DNA of 64,000 bases from Tichowtungia aerotolerans (GTDB taxonomy: Bacteria > Verrucomicrobiota > Kiritimatiellia > Kiritimatiellales > Tichowtungiaceae): positions 682,001 through 746,000 of the forward strand of contig NZ_CP047593.1 in assembly GCF_009905215.1 (NCBI RefSeq), given 5' to 3'. This document shows, piece by piece, positions 3,930-23,960 of this stretch. Made by a program: the position numbers and the translations under genes. Each line of letters begins with the position of its first letter. Position 1 is the first letter of the stretch. Below the pieces are notes generated by a model, which saw only the letters and a list, made by a program, of their open reading frames with translations, was not told the origin of the DNA and did no database searches.

Positions 3930-4301
3930 TCAGAACAACGGGGAAGAAGGCGCATCTTTAACCGGTTTAAAATCGGCACAGCTGTCGGTAGCCTGAACCT
4001 CTTTTTTATGAAATGAGCAATACTGCATAAACGGATTCACTACATATTCCGCACAATAACGACAAAACTGCCTGTTTTCGCCGTCTTCAAACACCTCAAC
4101 CTTTTCAGAACGATCCGCGTCGGTAAACACCTGCGGCACGGCTTCCTTTTCTTTATAAGGAACCGACTCCGGAGAAGGGAAAACAAATCCACAGGCAGAA
4201 CAGCTCAGTTTTTCCCCGATCTTTTTCAGCCCTTCATAAACCGGTTCCCGGGTCAGGAACGCTTCTGTACCGCATTCACTGCAAAGAATTTCTACAGACA
4301 T
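3930..4301 (-). CDS. Zinc-ribbon protein, partner of the histidine kinase
   Basis: This 123-residue protein is cysteine-rich: CSECG at the N-terminus, CSACG near residue 34, CRYC near residue 79, and further Cys residues near 93 and 107. This is consistent with one or two zinc ribbons (rubredoxin/FYVE-like knuckles) joined by an acidic linker. No enzymatic motif is visible. Its start overlaps the end of the histidine kinase gene by 26 bp on the same strand, so the two are translationally coupled and probably work together, perhaps as sensor accessory or output adaptor. That role is inferred from context only. Confidence 0.6.
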   Translation of the reverse strand: MSVEILCSECGTEAFLTREPVYEGLKKIGEKLSCSACGFVFPSPESVPYKEKEAVPQVFTDADRSEKVEVFEDGENRQFCRYCAEYVVNPFMQYCSFHKKEVQATDSCADFKPVKDAPSSPLF

Positions 4302-10356: not shown

Positions 10357-10433
10357 GGGCGTTTAGCTCAGTTGGTTAGAGCGCTTGCTTCACACGCAGG
10401 AGGTCACAGATTCGAGTTCTGTATCGCCCACCA
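10357..10433 (+). tRNA. tRNA-Val (anticodon CAC)
   Basis: A full cloverleaf with encoded CCA. The anticodon stem CTTGC/GCAGG encloses the loop TTCACAC, giving anticodon CAC for GTG codons. The T arm ACAGA-TTCGAGT-TCTGT is intact. The acceptor stem GGGCGTT/ATCGCCC has one T-T mismatch at pair 6-67. It is the likely attachment site of the adjacent integrase. Confidence 0.95.
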
Positions 10434-16954: not shown

Positions 16955-17011
16955 TTTTAATTCTCCTTTCAGTCGAATTCAGGCATTAGGCACTAGGCGT
17001 TAGGTTTATGG

Positions 17012-17434
17012 TTAGGTGACAGTGATGGTTCCGAGGTTGGCGGGACGAGCGAGCACGAGCTGGGTGTCGATACCCGCTTCTTCAGCGATGGCAACGGCGC
17101 GATAAGTTCCAGCATCTTCCGGCAGAACGATCACTTTGCCGGGCTGCCCTTCGACTGCCGGATCAGCCAGCACGAGCGTGTCGCCCGGGTTGCAGGTTCC
17201 GATGAGCGGGAGCCGGACATTGGCGGCAGCAGTCACCGGGAGGAAGTAGCCGGCTTCACCGGCGGCGGCTCCTTCGAGCACGAGATAGAGCGTCAGCGCG
17301 GTCAGGGAATCCGGCAGAGTCATCTGCGGGGTTCCAGTATCGTGGCTGAGAACCGCCAGGTGGTCATTGGCGGCAGTGAGGTCTTCGCCGCAGTTGAACG
17401 GGACGGGACCGAATTTTACATTTGATTGACTCAT
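17012..17434 (-). CDS. Capsid decoration protein (DUF2190-like)
   Basis: A 140-residue protein, rich in Ala/Gly/Val/Leu beta strands. DUF2190-type capsid cement proteins show the same pattern of short strands with GTCNPGDTLVLAD and a final YRAVAIAEEAG segment. It lies between protease/scaffold and major capsid genes, the standard place. The start at 17434 is supported by GGAGAAA; longer in-frame extension would run through repeat DNA without a ribosome binding site. Confidence 0.6.
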   Translation of the reverse strand: MSQSNVKFGPVPFNCGEDLTAANDHLAVLSHDTGTPQMTLPDSLTALTLYLVLEGAAAGEAGYFLPVTAAANVRLPLIGTCNPGDTLVLADPAVEGQPGKVIVLPEDAGTYRAVAIAEEAGIDTQLVLARPANLGTITVT

Positions 17435-19759: not shown

Positions 19760-19780
19760 TAAAGAGGCAAAATCAACCGG
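19760..19780 (-). repeat. Gene-boundary repeat, copy 4
   Basis: GGTTGATTTTGCCTCTTTA on the minus strand, overlapping the terminase stop codon and lying 17 bp before the portal start. Confidence 0.75.
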
Positions 19781-21044
19781 GCAGAATGCGGGGACGTTTC
19801 GCAAAGGGAGAGAAGCGCCCTTTCGGCAAGAGCGGCAGCATCGGCCCGACGGATTCGGTTTCCCAACGGCGGTGGTTGGCGAGTGCGAGGGCCATGACAC
19901 AGTCATCGTGGAATCCTGCCGGGGCGTTGTAGCTGAGGCGACCGCGGGCGGAAATCTCGTATTCATAGCGCTGCATCTCGTTGGTGAGCACCTGCCATTC
20001 TTCCGGCCAGCTCACCCGCTGTTGTTCGACGGCGACGATGAGCCGCTGGACCAGCTCCACTTTGGACTGGGCGGTAAATTTGAACGGTTCGATGTTGGAA
20101 TATCGCCGCGCCAGATCGTCATAGATCGGATCGCCGGCGCCGGTGGCGTCCAGAATGATGCGCCCGCGCCACTTGCGGGCGAACTCAAGGATGCGGTCTT
20201 TCTGGATCGGCCAGTCGAGCTGATTGAAGCGTTCCATATCAAAACAGCGACCCGTCCGCTGGTTCATGGCAACGAGCACGGTAAAGTCGGTGTGCTTGGC
20301 CACATCGCATCCGATCACCACCGCCCCCGCGCGGTCTTCGCGGGCTAAAGACCTCTGAGGAAACAAACAGGACGAGACGTTGCGGAAGACCCCGGCACTA
20401 TCTTCGAGGAACTGCGCATCGTATTCCTGCTGGAAAACATCGGCGGGCAGTGTCCGTTTGGCATCCTCCCATTCCGAGACAGGAAAAAACGGATTGTCGA
20501 TACTGGGGAACCGGAAGGATTCATAATCCGGCTCATGCGGATCTTCGCCGCGTGTGAACAAATCGTAGAACCAGTTGCGGCCTTTCGGGGTTGAAATGAA
20601 CACAGCCCAGCCAAGCGTCTGGGCAATGGTCGGTCGCAAAATGTATGTCCAAACATCGGGCGGGATCACCGCCGCTTCATCGACAACAATGCCCTTGAAG
20701 CCGTAACCGCGAATATTTTCAGGGTTGTCGGCGGATAGAAACCAAACCCGGCTGGTTCCGTTCGGACTGGTGAATTCCAGCCGCGACGGAGTCCGTCCAC
20801 TGAATCGGAGAAACTCCGGATCAAAGGCTTCCTGAAATGCCTCGCGTCCCCGATCAGCCACGTTGTAGGTCGGCGCAATCCATCCGTAGTCTCCGGGCTC
20901 TAAGACTCCGCGCTCGGCAACTTCTCGGGCAAGGCAGAGGGTTTTTCCGAATCGCCGTCCGGTACAGACAACTCGGAAGCGTGCTTTTGAGCTATGTATT
21001 CGGGACTGTCCTCGATGGGGGCAGTATCGGATAGGAGTTTCCAT
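19773..21044 (-). CDS. Terminase large subunit
   Basis: A 423-residue packaging motor and nuclease. ATPase motifs: Walker A TGRRFGKT near residue 30, Walker B GIVVDEAAV near residue 120, coupling motif STPKGRNWF near residue 150. The RNase-H-like nuclease follows with three acidic positions: GCDVAKHTDFT near residue 250, ILDATGAGDPI near residue 298, and FHDDCVMALALA near residue 395. The gene overlaps the small-subunit-like gene by 145 bp in a different frame, unusually long; the N-terminus MRYCPHRGQ-like segment before Walker A makes a much later start unlikely. Confidence 0.92.
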   Translation of the reverse strand: METPIRYCPHRGQSRIHSSKARFRVVCTGRRFGKTLCLAREVAERGVLEPGDYGWIAPTYNVADRGREAFQEAFDPEFLRFSGRTPSRLEFTSPNGTSRVWFLSADNPENIRGYGFKGIVVDEAAVIPPDVWTYILRPTIAQTLGWAVFISTPKGRNWFYDLFTRGEDPHEPDYESFRFPSIDNPFFPVSEWEDAKRTLPADVFQQEYDAQFLEDSAGVFRNVSSCLFPQRSLAREDRAGAVVIGCDVAKHTDFTVLVAMNQRTGRCFDMERFNQLDWPIQKDRILEFARKWRGRIILDATGAGDPIYDDLARRYSNIEPFKFTAQSKVELVQRLIVAVEQQRVSWPEEWQVLTNEMQRYEYEISARGRLSYNAPAGFHDDCVMALALANHRRWETESVGPMLPLLPKGRFSPFAKRPRILPG

Positions 21045-21286
21045 TTGAACTCTCCGTTGTTTTCAAGTGAGAGCGTTGCCTCTTTGGGAAGCAGCGGCAT
21101 GATGATGCGGCGGAAGAACCAAACGGGGTCGCGCTCAAGCGCTTTCTGAAGTCCGTCTCGAAGCGTTTCCATTACGCCCGCGTCTTTGAGCATGGAGTCA
21201 AGCTCTGCGAGAGCGAGCATGCGACCGCTGCGCGGTCCTTTTTTCCCGCCTGCGGGATTTCCTGATTGTCCGGGTTTGAAAGGCAT
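20900..21286 (-). CDS. DUF5681-type protein, likely terminase small subunit
   Basis: A 128-residue protein starting MPFKPGQSGNPAGGKKGPRS. The KPGQSGNPxGG signature marks DUF5681, found just upstream of terminase large subunits and thought to act as the DNA-recognising small subunit. AAGGAG lies eight bases before the ATG. The C-terminal third overlaps the terminase large gene. It is the first structural gene after the gene-free stretch that holds the palindrome array, which is a plausible packaging or recognition site. Confidence 0.75.
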   Translation of the reverse strand: MPFKPGQSGNPAGGKKGPRSGRMLALAELDSMLKDAGVMETLRDGLQKALERDPVWFFRRIIMPLLPKEATLSLENNGEFKWKLLSDTAPIEDSPEYIAQKHASELSVPDGDSEKPSALPEKLPSAES

Positions 21287-21300
21287 AAAATCTCCTTATC

Positions 21301-21321
21301 TAAAGAGGACAAATCAACCGG
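21301..21321 (-). repeat. Gene-boundary repeat, copy 5
   Basis: GGTTGATTTGTCCTCTTTA on the minus strand, ending 15 bp before the start of the small-subunit-like gene. Confidence 0.75.
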
Positions 21322-21580
21322 GCGGGCATTGTGTTTCAGAACGTTTCAGAACATTGCTAAGGGCAATAATTTGCAGGGGCGCGGAGCGCACGCGACGCGC
21401 CTGGAAGGGGGGACCCTCCGGGGGGGGGGAAACCAGAATCAGGGATCAGGTTTCAGGCAATAGGCATCAGTGCTTGAAACATTCTGAAACGGAAATGACT
21501 CCAGCGTTCCAGTCAATCGATCCATCTTCGATGACACCCCGCAGCGCGTGGCCCCTCCCCGGCCAGCAGGCGCGGGCGGA

Positions 21581-21836
21581 TTCCGAGGGCTGGAATTTTT
21601 TCATCCGAAGGTTGGAAGCAGGCTGAGCCTGCACCCAACAATTTTCCGAGCGTTGGAAAAAACGGCACCTCGTTTTCCGGGCTCTGGAAAAATTCGAAGA
21701 CTTTTTTCCGAGGTCTGGAAGAAATGGGAGTCCGCTTTTCCGAGGACTGGAATTTTTGCGGCTGCTTTTTCCGAGCATTGGAAAAATTGCAGGCCGTTTT
21801 TCCAGACCTTGGAAGGATTTTTTCCAAGGTTTGGAA
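21581..21836. repeat. Array of nine helically phased TTCCRANNNYTGGAA palindromes
   Basis: Copies begin at 21581, 21603, 21644, 21675, 21706, 21738, 21769, 21800 and 21822. The spacings are 22, 41, 31, 31, 32, 31, 31 and 22 bp, all close to whole multiples of 10.5 bp. The consensus is TTTTCCGAG-NN-TGGAAAA; arms are conserved while the ~16 bp between copies are unrelated. This is an iteron- or operator-like array, not a CRISPR, because the unit is a short palindrome and the spacers are shorter than the repeat. It lies between the small-subunit-like gene and the structured RNA region. Confidence 0.85.
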
Positions 21837-21839
21837 AGC

Positions 21840-23285
21840 CGTGCGGAGCGCGGTTGCGCCGGGGCTTGCGCGTGTGTGGGCTTGCGGTTTCTGCCCGGCG
21901 CTTTTCGCGGTGAGGTGTTCTGGGTTTTCTAATGGACAACACCTTGCTCCCGGCAGGGAAGCCGGGCGAGCCCGCGAGCCAAGAGGCGTGCCGCGTAGCG
22001 GCGAGTTTCCGGCGGCGGCGACAATGGGCGGGCATCTTCGGGTGGGATGTTGCCCGCCGACGGATTCCCCGGGGTGAACGGAAGCGGGGGCCGGCCGCCA
22101 TAGTGTTGCCTGCAGGTCGCCGGATCGCTTCGCGCTGCCGAACGGACAGGTTGTGCTCCGCCTTGCGTTGGGCAGAACCGGAATGCAGGCTCCGCTGGGC
22201 GGCTGGCCCTCGCTGGAGTGAGCCCCTCCCACCCACTTGACTTGACTAACCAAGGGGCTGGCAGGTTTTGTGCAGCGACGAAGGAGCCAGCACAAAGCAT
22301 GACAGCTTTGGGTGGAAGGGGGTGAGGCCGAAGGCCGAGGGGGAAGGCACGGGGCCGGAGGCGGGAAATTTGAGACGGATTGTGCAACAGCGTGTCCCCT
22401 GCCCTTGGGTGGTGTTTTGCAGGATCGACTCGCCGGGCTTCTGCCTGGAGACTCCAATTTGCCGACTCCGTGAGCTGGGGGCCTGCCCCCTTTGAGTGAC
22501 TGCGCAGAGGGAAGGCACGTGTGAGGAACGAGCCGTGCCGGGTTGGAGCGAGGAAAGCGGTGTTTGATCCACCGCCACCAAACAAACATAAGTGGTTTTT
22601 ATGCGATGTTTCGGCCTCTAGGCGAGGTACGAGCTGGCCGACACGTGCGGTATTCCGCGGACGCATAAAAACAACTTATGTGGGTCTGGGGCTTTCCGAG
22701 CGTCCCCGGCGCCTGTTCCGCCGGCCGACAAAATGAGCGGAGCGATCCGAGGGAGGCCAACCGGGAACAATCTGAACCGAAAGGAGGCACGACAGAAGGT
22801 TCAGTTTGTGGACGGTTTTGAAGGCCGACTGAGGGGGAAGTCCGTGAAGCGATGGCCCGGACTGTCAGACCAGGAGTCCCCTGCCCCGGTGTCTGCGAAA
22901 TGAGGTACGAATGAGCAGGCTGAGGGTCTGGGGACGGTGGGCTGCAGAACGGGACAGCGCTTGACGGACTTCAAGGTGGCGCTTGTTCCGCCACCCGACA
23001 ATCTGAGCGGACGCGATCCGAGGGAGGGCCAACCGGAAGGCAGTCTGAAAGAAAGAATGGGGGTTCCGAACAGGAACCGGAACCATTCTTTGTTTCAGTC
23101 TGCCGAACGGTTCCAAAGGCCCGACTGAGGCGGAGACCAACGAAGCGAACTTTGACAACGGCTCTTTCACTCTGGATGGAATGAGGTACGAATGGAATCC
23201 AGGTGGAAGGCCGAGGGCAAAGGGCGCTTGGTTGGTCTCCGTACAGCAGAAAGCATGACAGTGTATTCACTGGCAGGATTTCTGC
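21840..23285. ncRNA. Candidate giant structured RNA in the prophage
   Basis: No credible gene lies in this GC-rich stretch; its open frames are antisense or low-complexity artefacts. It holds many long helices: 22027-22034/22051-22058; 22357-22370/22456-22469 (12 of 14 pairs); 22587-22605/22662-22680 (18 of 19); 22837-22851/22958-22972 (14 of 15); 23041-23060/23083-23102 (18 of 20); 23131-23147/23225-23241 (16 of 17). Two tandem domains (about 22706-22972 and 22975-23241) share loops and mismatches while their stems differ with compensating changes. Hairpins with a GAGGWACGA loop occur four times. Purine-rich loops favour the plus strand, but the minus strand (co-directional with phage genes) cannot be excluded. 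The ends are approximate; the best-supported core is 22250-23245. Confidence 0.75.
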
Positions 23286-23286
23286 C

Positions 23287-23724
23287 CTAGCGGTGAGGAC
23301 GACGAACCTTCTGACGGGCAACTTTATACGGAAACAACGATTTCAATACCGGCCAATCCCTCATGGCAAGGCGATGACGCTTCTCTACACACGAAACCGT
23401 AACACCCTGACGCTCGGCAATCTCCTTGTACTGCAAACCCTGGTAACGCAAAGAAATCACATCGCGCTGCTCAGGAGGAAGGGAAAGAAAGCCCTGCACA
23501 AACTGGGCGAGTGTTGCCGCCGGCAACATCGGGTTATCAGTTAACTGTTCGGAGTTACCCAAAGCAGGCGCGGCAGCTTCCGGAAGGTGCTCGTCATCGT
23601 AGGGAACCGAGTAGAATGTATTCTCACGGAGCTTACAGGTAGAACAAGGCAACGCATCCCAAGGGGTGGAATCATAATCACCGCGCAGGATGGCTTCGGA
23701 ATGGGGACAGGAATGACAGTTCAT
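23287..23724 (-). CDS. Sigma-region-4-like transcription regulator
   Basis: A 145-residue protein. The N-terminal part has cysteine pairs (CHSCPHSEAI, CSTCK) that could bind zinc. The C-terminal part (about residues 85-135) is a sigma70 region-4-like helix-turn-helix: LPPEQRDVISLRYQGLQYKEIAERQGVTVSCVEKRHRLAM. It lacks sigma regions 2 and 3, so it would act as an activator or late-gene regulator rather than a full sigma factor. It is the last gene of the replication block and sits immediately upstream of the gene-free stretch and late genes, a natural place for a late switch. It is coupled by ATGA to the preceding small gene. Confidence 0.75.
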   Translation of the reverse strand: MNCHSCPHSEAILRGDYDSTPWDALPCSTCKLRENTFYSVPYDDEHLPEAAAPALGNSEQLTDNPMLPAATLAQFVQGFLSLPPEQRDVISLRYQGLQYKEIAERQGVTVSCVEKRHRLAMRDWPVLKSLFPYKVARQKVRRPHR

Positions 23725-23960
23725 AAACAGACTCCGGCGTAGAGGGTGACAAGTGACAAAACGGCAAAAACCAACGACACCGAGAAAGCGCCCTGCAGGA
23801 AGGGGAAATGTCGTAATGACATATTATGACATCTATATATAAATAATATAGATATAGGAAAAAGCGCCCGCCGTGCAGGGTGTGAGAGTCTGAGGAAAGC
23901 TTCACAGGCTTTTTTCAACGTGATGTCATACGTCAGAATGTCAAAAAGGGGCGTGTTCAT
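23721..23960 (-). CDS. Small membrane protein in the prophage
   Basis: A 79-residue protein starting MNTPLFDILTYDITLKKACE with a good GAAGGAG ribosome binding site. A hydrophobic C-terminal segment (FPFLQGAFSVSLVFAVLSLVTLYAGVCL) suggests one membrane helix. It overlaps the end of the primase/helicase gene by 20 bp and the start of the sigma-4-like gene by 4 bp. An A/T-rich block (23820-23860) inside it could hold a promoter for the downstream gene. Function unknown. Confidence 0.55.
   Translation of the reverse strand: MNTPLFDILTYDITLKKACEAFLRLSHPARRALFPISILFIYRCHNMSLRHFPFLQGAFSVSLVFAVLSLVTLYAGVCL

Follow-up and report, generated by a model that had tools for sequence, protein, structure and literature searches.

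Does the gene-free stretch between the sigma-like regulator gene and the terminase genes of this prophage encode a giant structured RNA, or is it something else? The stretch extends from 21287 to 23286 of the window (the whole 64-kb piece of DNA analysed here) and is flanked by a TerS-like gene and by the gene for a 145-residue sigma-70-region-4 protein, both on the (-) strand. An initial annotation, made from the sequence alone, had noted a gene-free stretch (21840-23285) between a sigma-4-like regulator and the terminase genes, regarded its open frames as artefacts and proposed a giant structured prophage RNA that it could not match to GOLLD or ROOL. The gene-free interval and its neighbours were confirmed, and the RNA proposal is supported by fold z-scores of about -10 to -14, by covariation and by the absence of coding, without any transcription data. 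The analysis shows, by computation, that the stretch is non-coding, conserved in a phage family and strongly folded, with helices that covary. In the absence of expression data, it is likely that the stretch specifies a new family of giant ornate phage RNA, about 1.35 kb in length and read from the (+) strand (Table 1).

Table 1. Features of the RNA locus in the window
Feature	Position	Strand	Basis
Giant structured RNA	21940..23286	(+)	Homologs at same locus; fold z -10; covariation; non-coding test
Core hairpin GCUGGCRNG...CRUGACAGC with conserved GGGGGUGAGGC tail	22250..22340	(+)	Models R1, R3; covariation in 20-29 instances
Long helix 22587-22605/22662-22680	22587..22680	(+)	Helix of the initial annotation; other phages have a short local hairpin, GCATAATT..AATTATGC, in its place
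Apical loop GAGGUACGA, copy 1	22624..22632	(+)	GAGGYACGA pattern
Apical loop GAGGCACGA, copy 2	22784..22792	(+)	GAGGYACGA pattern
21-bp helix 22840-22866/22944-22969	22840..22969	(+)	5 pairs with compensatory changes; encloses GAGGUACGA hairpin
Apical loop GAGGUACGA, copy 3	22902..22910	(+)	GAGGYACGA pattern
19-bp helix 23039-23060/23083-23104	23039..23104	(+)	7 pairs with compensatory changes, 6 homologs
3' module: long helix 23130-23161/23211-23242 bearing GAGGUACGA hairpin	23130..23242	(+)	Model R2
Apical loop GAGGUACGA, copy 4	23183..23191	(+)	GAGGYACGA pattern
3'-terminal hairpin, core internal-loop motif permuted (GCAUGACAGUG...CACUGGCAGG)	23246..23285	(+)	Repeat families D13/D16; permuted descriptor
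Sigma-like protein gene	23287..23724	(-)	N-terminal CxxC/CxxC and sigma-70 region 4; PF08281 E 4e-10; protein alignment
Terminase small subunit-like (TerS)	20900..21286	(-)	Position and DUF5681-like N-terminus
Terminase large subunit (TerL)	19773..21044	(-)	phrog_2 E 3e-47
Control-like region 5' of TerS	21287..21490	not assigned	TGTTTCA(R)NNNGTTTCA direct repeat at 21332-21349; 9-phage alignment

A non-coding locus conserved among related phages

The ends of the RNA were inferred from cross-phage conservation and have not been mapped. Conservation begins near 21935-21940, which refines the start at 21840 given by the annotation; the sequence at 21640-21837 belongs to a palindrome array (see below). 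Homologs range from 1.24 to 1.85 kb. The window genome (3.88 Mb, one contig) contains three further copies, hence four in total, each located between the sigma-like gene and the TerS gene of its own prophage, and all within the same phage family. Additional copies were found in four genomes of the same genus (G032, G029, G394 and G395) and in four IMG/VR phages retrieved through their sigma-like protein and TerL; in G029 and the IMG/VR phages the RNA likewise lies at the junction of the sigma-like gene and TerS. A partial copy is found beside the sigma-like gene on a MAG contig (L070), and in G226, from another family, RNA copies adjoin the same primase. Complete copies always adjoin TerS. The comparison set consisted of ten complete or near-complete copies (one, L042, without its TerS end), which fall into two clades and are 49-84% identical. 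At the nucleotide level the RNA is about as well conserved as TerL (87% vs 88.6%).

Mismatches between related copies show no codon phase in any of five pairs (p 0.32-0.83), and of the 112 indels only 19 have a length divisible by three. The TerL genes of the same phages, used as a coding control, gave p values of 1e-21 to 1e-33 and in-frame indels only. Since mismatches without codon phase are accompanied by few indels in threes, unlike the situation in TerL, the open frames are artefacts, as the annotation had held, and the stretch is non-coding. A protein frame conserved in the homologs, which would have refuted the RNA proposal, was looked for and none was found.

The sigma-like gene itself diverges faster than its neighbours, with 62% nucleotide identity between the window and L022 (RNA, 87%; TerL, 89%). 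A related phage (L054, 3021-5672) carries a gene-free segment of 2.6 kb at the corresponding position; its fold excess is weaker (z -2.5 to -5.2) and a search of it with the core-hairpin model gave no match. A different or diverged RNA is one possibility here. Four other candidate relatives were not retained: a 17-mer match (L075) proved to be a chance match in an unrelated phage, a two-part pattern match (L109) a chance match inside a protein gene, and two weak core matches (L107, L108), which lie within long open frames, are probably false.

Folding strength and strand

The region was folded on both strands. On the (+) strand, positions 21940-23286 reach an MFE of -690.7, compared with -570.3 +/- 12.1 in dinucleotide-shuffled sequences (z -10.0), and three homologs give z values of -9.9 to -14.3. 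As controls, two length-matched coding stretches from the same prophage score between -0.2 and +0.6. With 15 shuffles per strand, these z-scores are rough. The (-) strand also folds better than its shuffles; however, the (+) strand has the lower energy in 10 of 10 homologs and, in the four tested, gains more over its own shuffles (100-136 vs 71-98 kcal/mol). The core motif led to seven other loci, and in these the strand that bears it folds to the lower MFE; measured against shuffles, this strand gains clearly more at some of them, and the two strands gain about equally in the first half of L052, in L097, in L101 and in part of L100.

Further indications of strand come from the pairs themselves. 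In the core, one conserved position pairs as G-U in 18 of 20 instances, the other two having A-U; on the opposite strand the G-U would become C.A, which points to the (+) strand. Among pairs predicted on both strands, the two clades have G.U to A.C ratios of 27:25 and 16:8, weakly favouring (+). A second scan of strand-neutral pairs was uninformative, and the MFE structures of the (-) strand come close to those of the (+) strand in their gain of compensatory changes. Altogether, the (+) strand, opposite to the flanking genes in the window, is probably the relevant one, on moderate evidence that falls short of proof and includes no expression data. In this orientation the RNA is convergent with the sigma-like gene. 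The arrangement is not fixed: unlike the window, L052 and L053 carry the motif on the strand that encodes TerS and TerL, suggesting that the RNA is an independent unit.

Covariation

Analysis of each clade with RNAalifold yielded long helices with compensatory changes, 8 pairs being so affected in the 23130-23161/23211-23242 helix. In the 3' module, whose alignment was made by sequence only, 12 of 20 pairs show double changes, amounting to 36 cells where shuffling gives 12.8 +/- 2.9 and sliding the partners gives at most 7. The core hairpin, aligned in 29 instances by fitting to a model, shows 72 double-change cells vs 18.1 +/- 3.4 in shuffled data. Alignments A6 and A8 were fitted to a model, and three A8 rows are reverse-strand matches. 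A purpose-written test (G-test with APC, null alignments simulated on a tree) found 8 of 19, 7 of 20 and 9 of 20 pairs significant in cleaned sets at p<0.01, with 0.2 expected; these cleaner subsets still pass, with fewer significant pairs. Applied to the whole RNA, with a structure taken from a single sequence, the same test gave 23 of 334 pairs vs 3.3 expected. At the all-pairs level, significant pairs occur only inside the structure, and in single-sequence MFE structures compensatory changes are about double those in a re-pairing control. Thus the outcome that would have counted against the RNA, helices without covariation, was not borne out for the 3' module and the core. The global fold remains unresolved in this ten-copy, two-clade alignment, and pseudoknots were outside the analysis.

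Both helices cited as examples by the annotation exist as described: 18 of 19 positions pair between 22587-22605 and 22662-22680 (CATAAGTGGTTTTTATGCG / CGCATAAAAACAACTTATG), and 12 of 14 between 22357-22370 and 22456-22469 (GGAGGCGGGAAATT / AATTTGCCGACTCC). The value of the longer one as evidence is weakened. It is invariant where present and confined to the window sub-lineage, so it is not itself evidence for a structured RNA; no covariation was detected in it, and in one relative a pair is even lost. It is other helices that covary.

Modules re-used within the RNA

Three kinds of module are used repeatedly in the RNA: the 3' module, the GAGGYACGA loops and the UGGCGNG/CRUGACA hairpin. The best-conserved domain is the core hairpin, whose helix pairs 22256-22279 with 22283-22307. 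The hairpin UGGCGNG-N5-UGC...GCA-N5-CRUGACA forms the core and recurs, permuted, at the 3' terminus of window-type copies; one to six copies are found per RNA or locus, six being reached in G204. The 3'-terminal hairpin (16 bp, 98% paired in clade 1) abuts the end of the sigma-like gene. It is present in window-related copies, with permuted-descriptor matches in L022, L023, L024 and L044, and is absent from L043-type copies. The 3' module is duplicated in copy L023. The nine-base loop GAGGYACGA occurs four times in the 64-kb window when both strands are searched, always inside the RNA and on the (+) strand, and is also found in the more distant phage L053.

The core hairpin also occurs in integron attC sites

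A model of the UGGCGNG...CRUGACA hairpin (R3), whose specificity outside the phylum was not measured, matched 40 of 346 genomes of the class, in 26 of 121 genera. Several of the loci are gene-free and strongly folded. Some are phage-like, lying near TerS (L097) or near an integrase and a primase (L102), and others lie beside ordinary genes encoding an ABC transporter, RimK or MutY. Stretches of several hundred bases are common to some of these loci (L100-L102, 573 nt at 69% identity).

Family f46, which belongs to the same phylum, has copies of the hairpin spaced a few hundred bases apart, all on one strand. These copies form the end portion of the attC sites of integrons (GCCGAAC...TGAGCCA...hairpin...TGGCTC...GTTCGGC), which are about 100 nt long and located between short cassette genes in five arrays (L152, L153, L154, L155 and L156), all of which contain the attC box pairs. 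An integron integrase was identified at the end of the L152 array (TIGR02249, E 2.8e-114). In its terminal hairpin the attC site shares the motif UGGCGCG/CGUGACA with the phage RNA; the cassette genes are encoded on one strand and the motif lies on the other, which is the strand that folds in attC sites. The hairpin is thus common to two kinds of element, phage RNA and integron attC, and whether descent, exchange or a common binding factor accounts for this is undecided. Because the hairpin marks attC sites in f46, its tally across the phylum is not a tally of giant RNAs. For the same reason, a caveat must be added to the original proposal: a single-stranded DNA role is not excluded for the phage element.

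The two settings differ in several respects. Attempts to find an attC R/L box pair around the window core or the L043 core were unsuccessful, the attC-like pattern scored 0 in the non-integron relatives L097-L106, there is no cassette array at the phage locus, and GAGGYACGA loops are absent from the motif strand of the integron arrays.

Several other regions are of note. Gene-free and mostly strongly folded stretches in L100 (7391-9098), L102 (6341-7376), L101 (7992-8089) and L105 (7081-7172) contain one to six hairpins beside an ABC transporter, RimK, a DUF5906 helicase or integrases. They probably represent giant RNAs of a broader family within the class; the folding tests did not include L105. 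In L157, two identical copies of the hairpin (4160-4235 and 16982-17057) lie beside RHS-type genes in a tandem duplication of about 12.8 kb.

Comparison with known RNA families

A cmscan of the window and ten relatives against Rfam returned only tRNAs above threshold and neither GOLLD nor ROOL, as the annotation had suspected. With E relaxed to 10, the interval 21200-23800 still gave no GOLLD, ROOL, OLE or HEARO. A group II intron or ribozyme was discarded as a candidate, its sole support being a chance-level match to group-II-D1D4-3 (14 bits, E 9.8). Distant blastn against phage records produced only short chance matches (best E 0.05), and a literature search, with most subscription papers outside its scope, did not turn up any description of an RNA like this one from the group.

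A giant ornate RNA is recognised as a long non-coding region with many covarying helices, a criterion that the window RNA meets. Like GOLLD, a giant ornate non-coding RNA of phages and prophages (PMC12286853), it exceeds 800 nt and has a conserved and a variable part; unlike GOLLD, it is 1.24-1.85 kb in length, has other motifs and no Rfam match, and is located where the sigma-like and terminase genes meet, not beside a tRNA island. GOLLD and ROOL are often found near tRNA islands in phages and prophages, and the GOLLD transcript is reported to be stable, abundant and raised during lysis. The only tRNA of the 64-kb window is at 10357, 11-12 kb from the RNA. ROOL, about 660 nt (PMC12286853), resembles the window RNA in being large, ornate and borne by phages and prophages, with extensive covarying helices and no known protein partner; it differs in length (the window RNA has about 1,350 nt), in locus and in lacking the duplicated modules, and its Rfam model does not match. 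Both GOLLD and ROOL form RNA-only cages (PMC12286853).

Very few giant phage RNAs are known (GOLLD, ROOL), and none has a known function. An independent family, twice the length of ROOL or thereabouts, would offer natural variants in plenty, with ten near-complete copies (four from a single genome) and a core hairpin present in roughly a tenth of the genomes sampled from the class. Such variants supply the covariation needed to solve the structure, while the re-used modules indicate which parts to test.

Interpretation and rival explanations

A folded RNA product seems likely, being favoured over single-stranded DNA, although this is not proven and there are no transcription data. The RNA would be made as an independent unit, probably together with the late genes. 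In other phages, late regulators such as RinA/ArpU occupy the place of the sigma-region-4 gene; late expression under control of the sigma-region-4 protein is inferred from this position, and we lean, without firm commitment, towards it. The RNA is predicted to fold mostly on its own, with its repeated loops and internal loops providing multivalent tertiary or intermolecular contacts. These contacts may hold together a compact, possibly homo-oligomeric RNA particle. The proposal rests on the repeated modules and on the analogy with GOLLD and ROOL; as there are no data on oligomerisation or function, RNA-only assembly as the working principle is an inference that we consider more apt to prove wrong than right.

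The main rival, which we regard as unlikely, is that the (+) strand folds as single-stranded DNA during replication, packaging or integrase recombination, in the manner of an attC site, an origin or a pac site, with no RNA needed. In its favour, the same hairpin forms the terminal part of attC sites in f46, on the folding strand, and the locus lies beside primase and terminase genes. Against it stand the missing R/L boxes and cassette array, the lack of the attC-like pattern in the non-integron relatives tested and of GAGGYACGA loops on the motif strand of integron arrays. An attC site, moreover, is a single-stranded DNA element of about 100 nt, with R'/R'' and L'/L'' boxes, set between cassettes; its likeness to the phage locus lies in the hairpin TGGCGNG-N5-TGC-loop-GCA-N5-CRTGACA, found in the f46 arrays and in the phage RNA. 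An elaborate modular structure of 1.2-1.85 kb is larger than known attC, origin or pac sites, and the conserved G-U pair and the larger (+) gain over shuffles (calculated with RNA parameters) point to RNA. A very long structured UTR, or an RNA internal to the operon, transcribed from the minus strand along with the sigma-like gene, TerS and TerL and acting as a control on late gene expression, is very unlikely. All flanking genes are indeed on the (-) strand, which itself folds better than shuffles into an MFE structure with compensatory changes; this reading is opposed by the energy differences in favour of (+), by the C.A that the core G-U pair would become, and by the position of the motif on the TerS/TerL strand in L052 and L053.

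A packaging RNA working with the adjoining terminase, as the pRNA of phi29 does, is also very unlikely. The constant association of complete copies with TerS and a nucleotide conservation matching that of TerL speak for it, and both RNAs are non-coding phage RNAs near packaging genes. However, pRNA has about 120-174 nt and is smaller by an order of magnitude, no sequence or model links the two, the terminase is of the ordinary TerL type with its own TerS-like partner, and related structured regions are found away from terminase, by ABC-transporter, RimK and MutY genes. Finally, the stretch might be a degenerate gene, an intron or a repeat island whose hairpins are incidental. It is repeat-rich, and dispersed palindromes abut its 5' side; yet the absence of a codon signal and of an intron match, and the conservation between phages with compensatory changes, contradict this explanation and all but exclude it.

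Returning to the giant RNA, a bolder reading can be entertained as a possibility: a new giant phage RNA class, among the longest structured phage RNAs, which would assemble from repeated hairpin modules, one of them being the attC tip unit. If so, integrons and phage RNAs would exchange structured modules, possibly with a shared factor that recognises the two. The hairpin shared with attC sites is unexpected and directly testable.

Sequences 5' of the RNA

No convincing sigma-70-type promoter or clear terminator was found for the RNA; the phage may use other signals. The region between the TerS gene and 21490 is a possible divergent promoter/operator region, a function that is inferred. A TGTTTCARNNNGTTTCA repeat before TerS (21332-21349 and 21475-21490) is kept in most of the nine aligned phages, several of which have an inverted copy, TGAAACATTCTGAAAC, nearby; it might be an operator of the late genes, again by inference. 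Further along, just 5' of the RNA, the array at 21640-21837 consists of related copies of a palindrome, TTTTCCANNNNTTGGAAAA, that is dispersed genome-wide: with one mismatch allowed, whole genome G000 has 520 and 516 matches on the two strands and 0 matches to the reversed pattern used as a control. Copies similar to this palindrome are also present in relatives of the genus.
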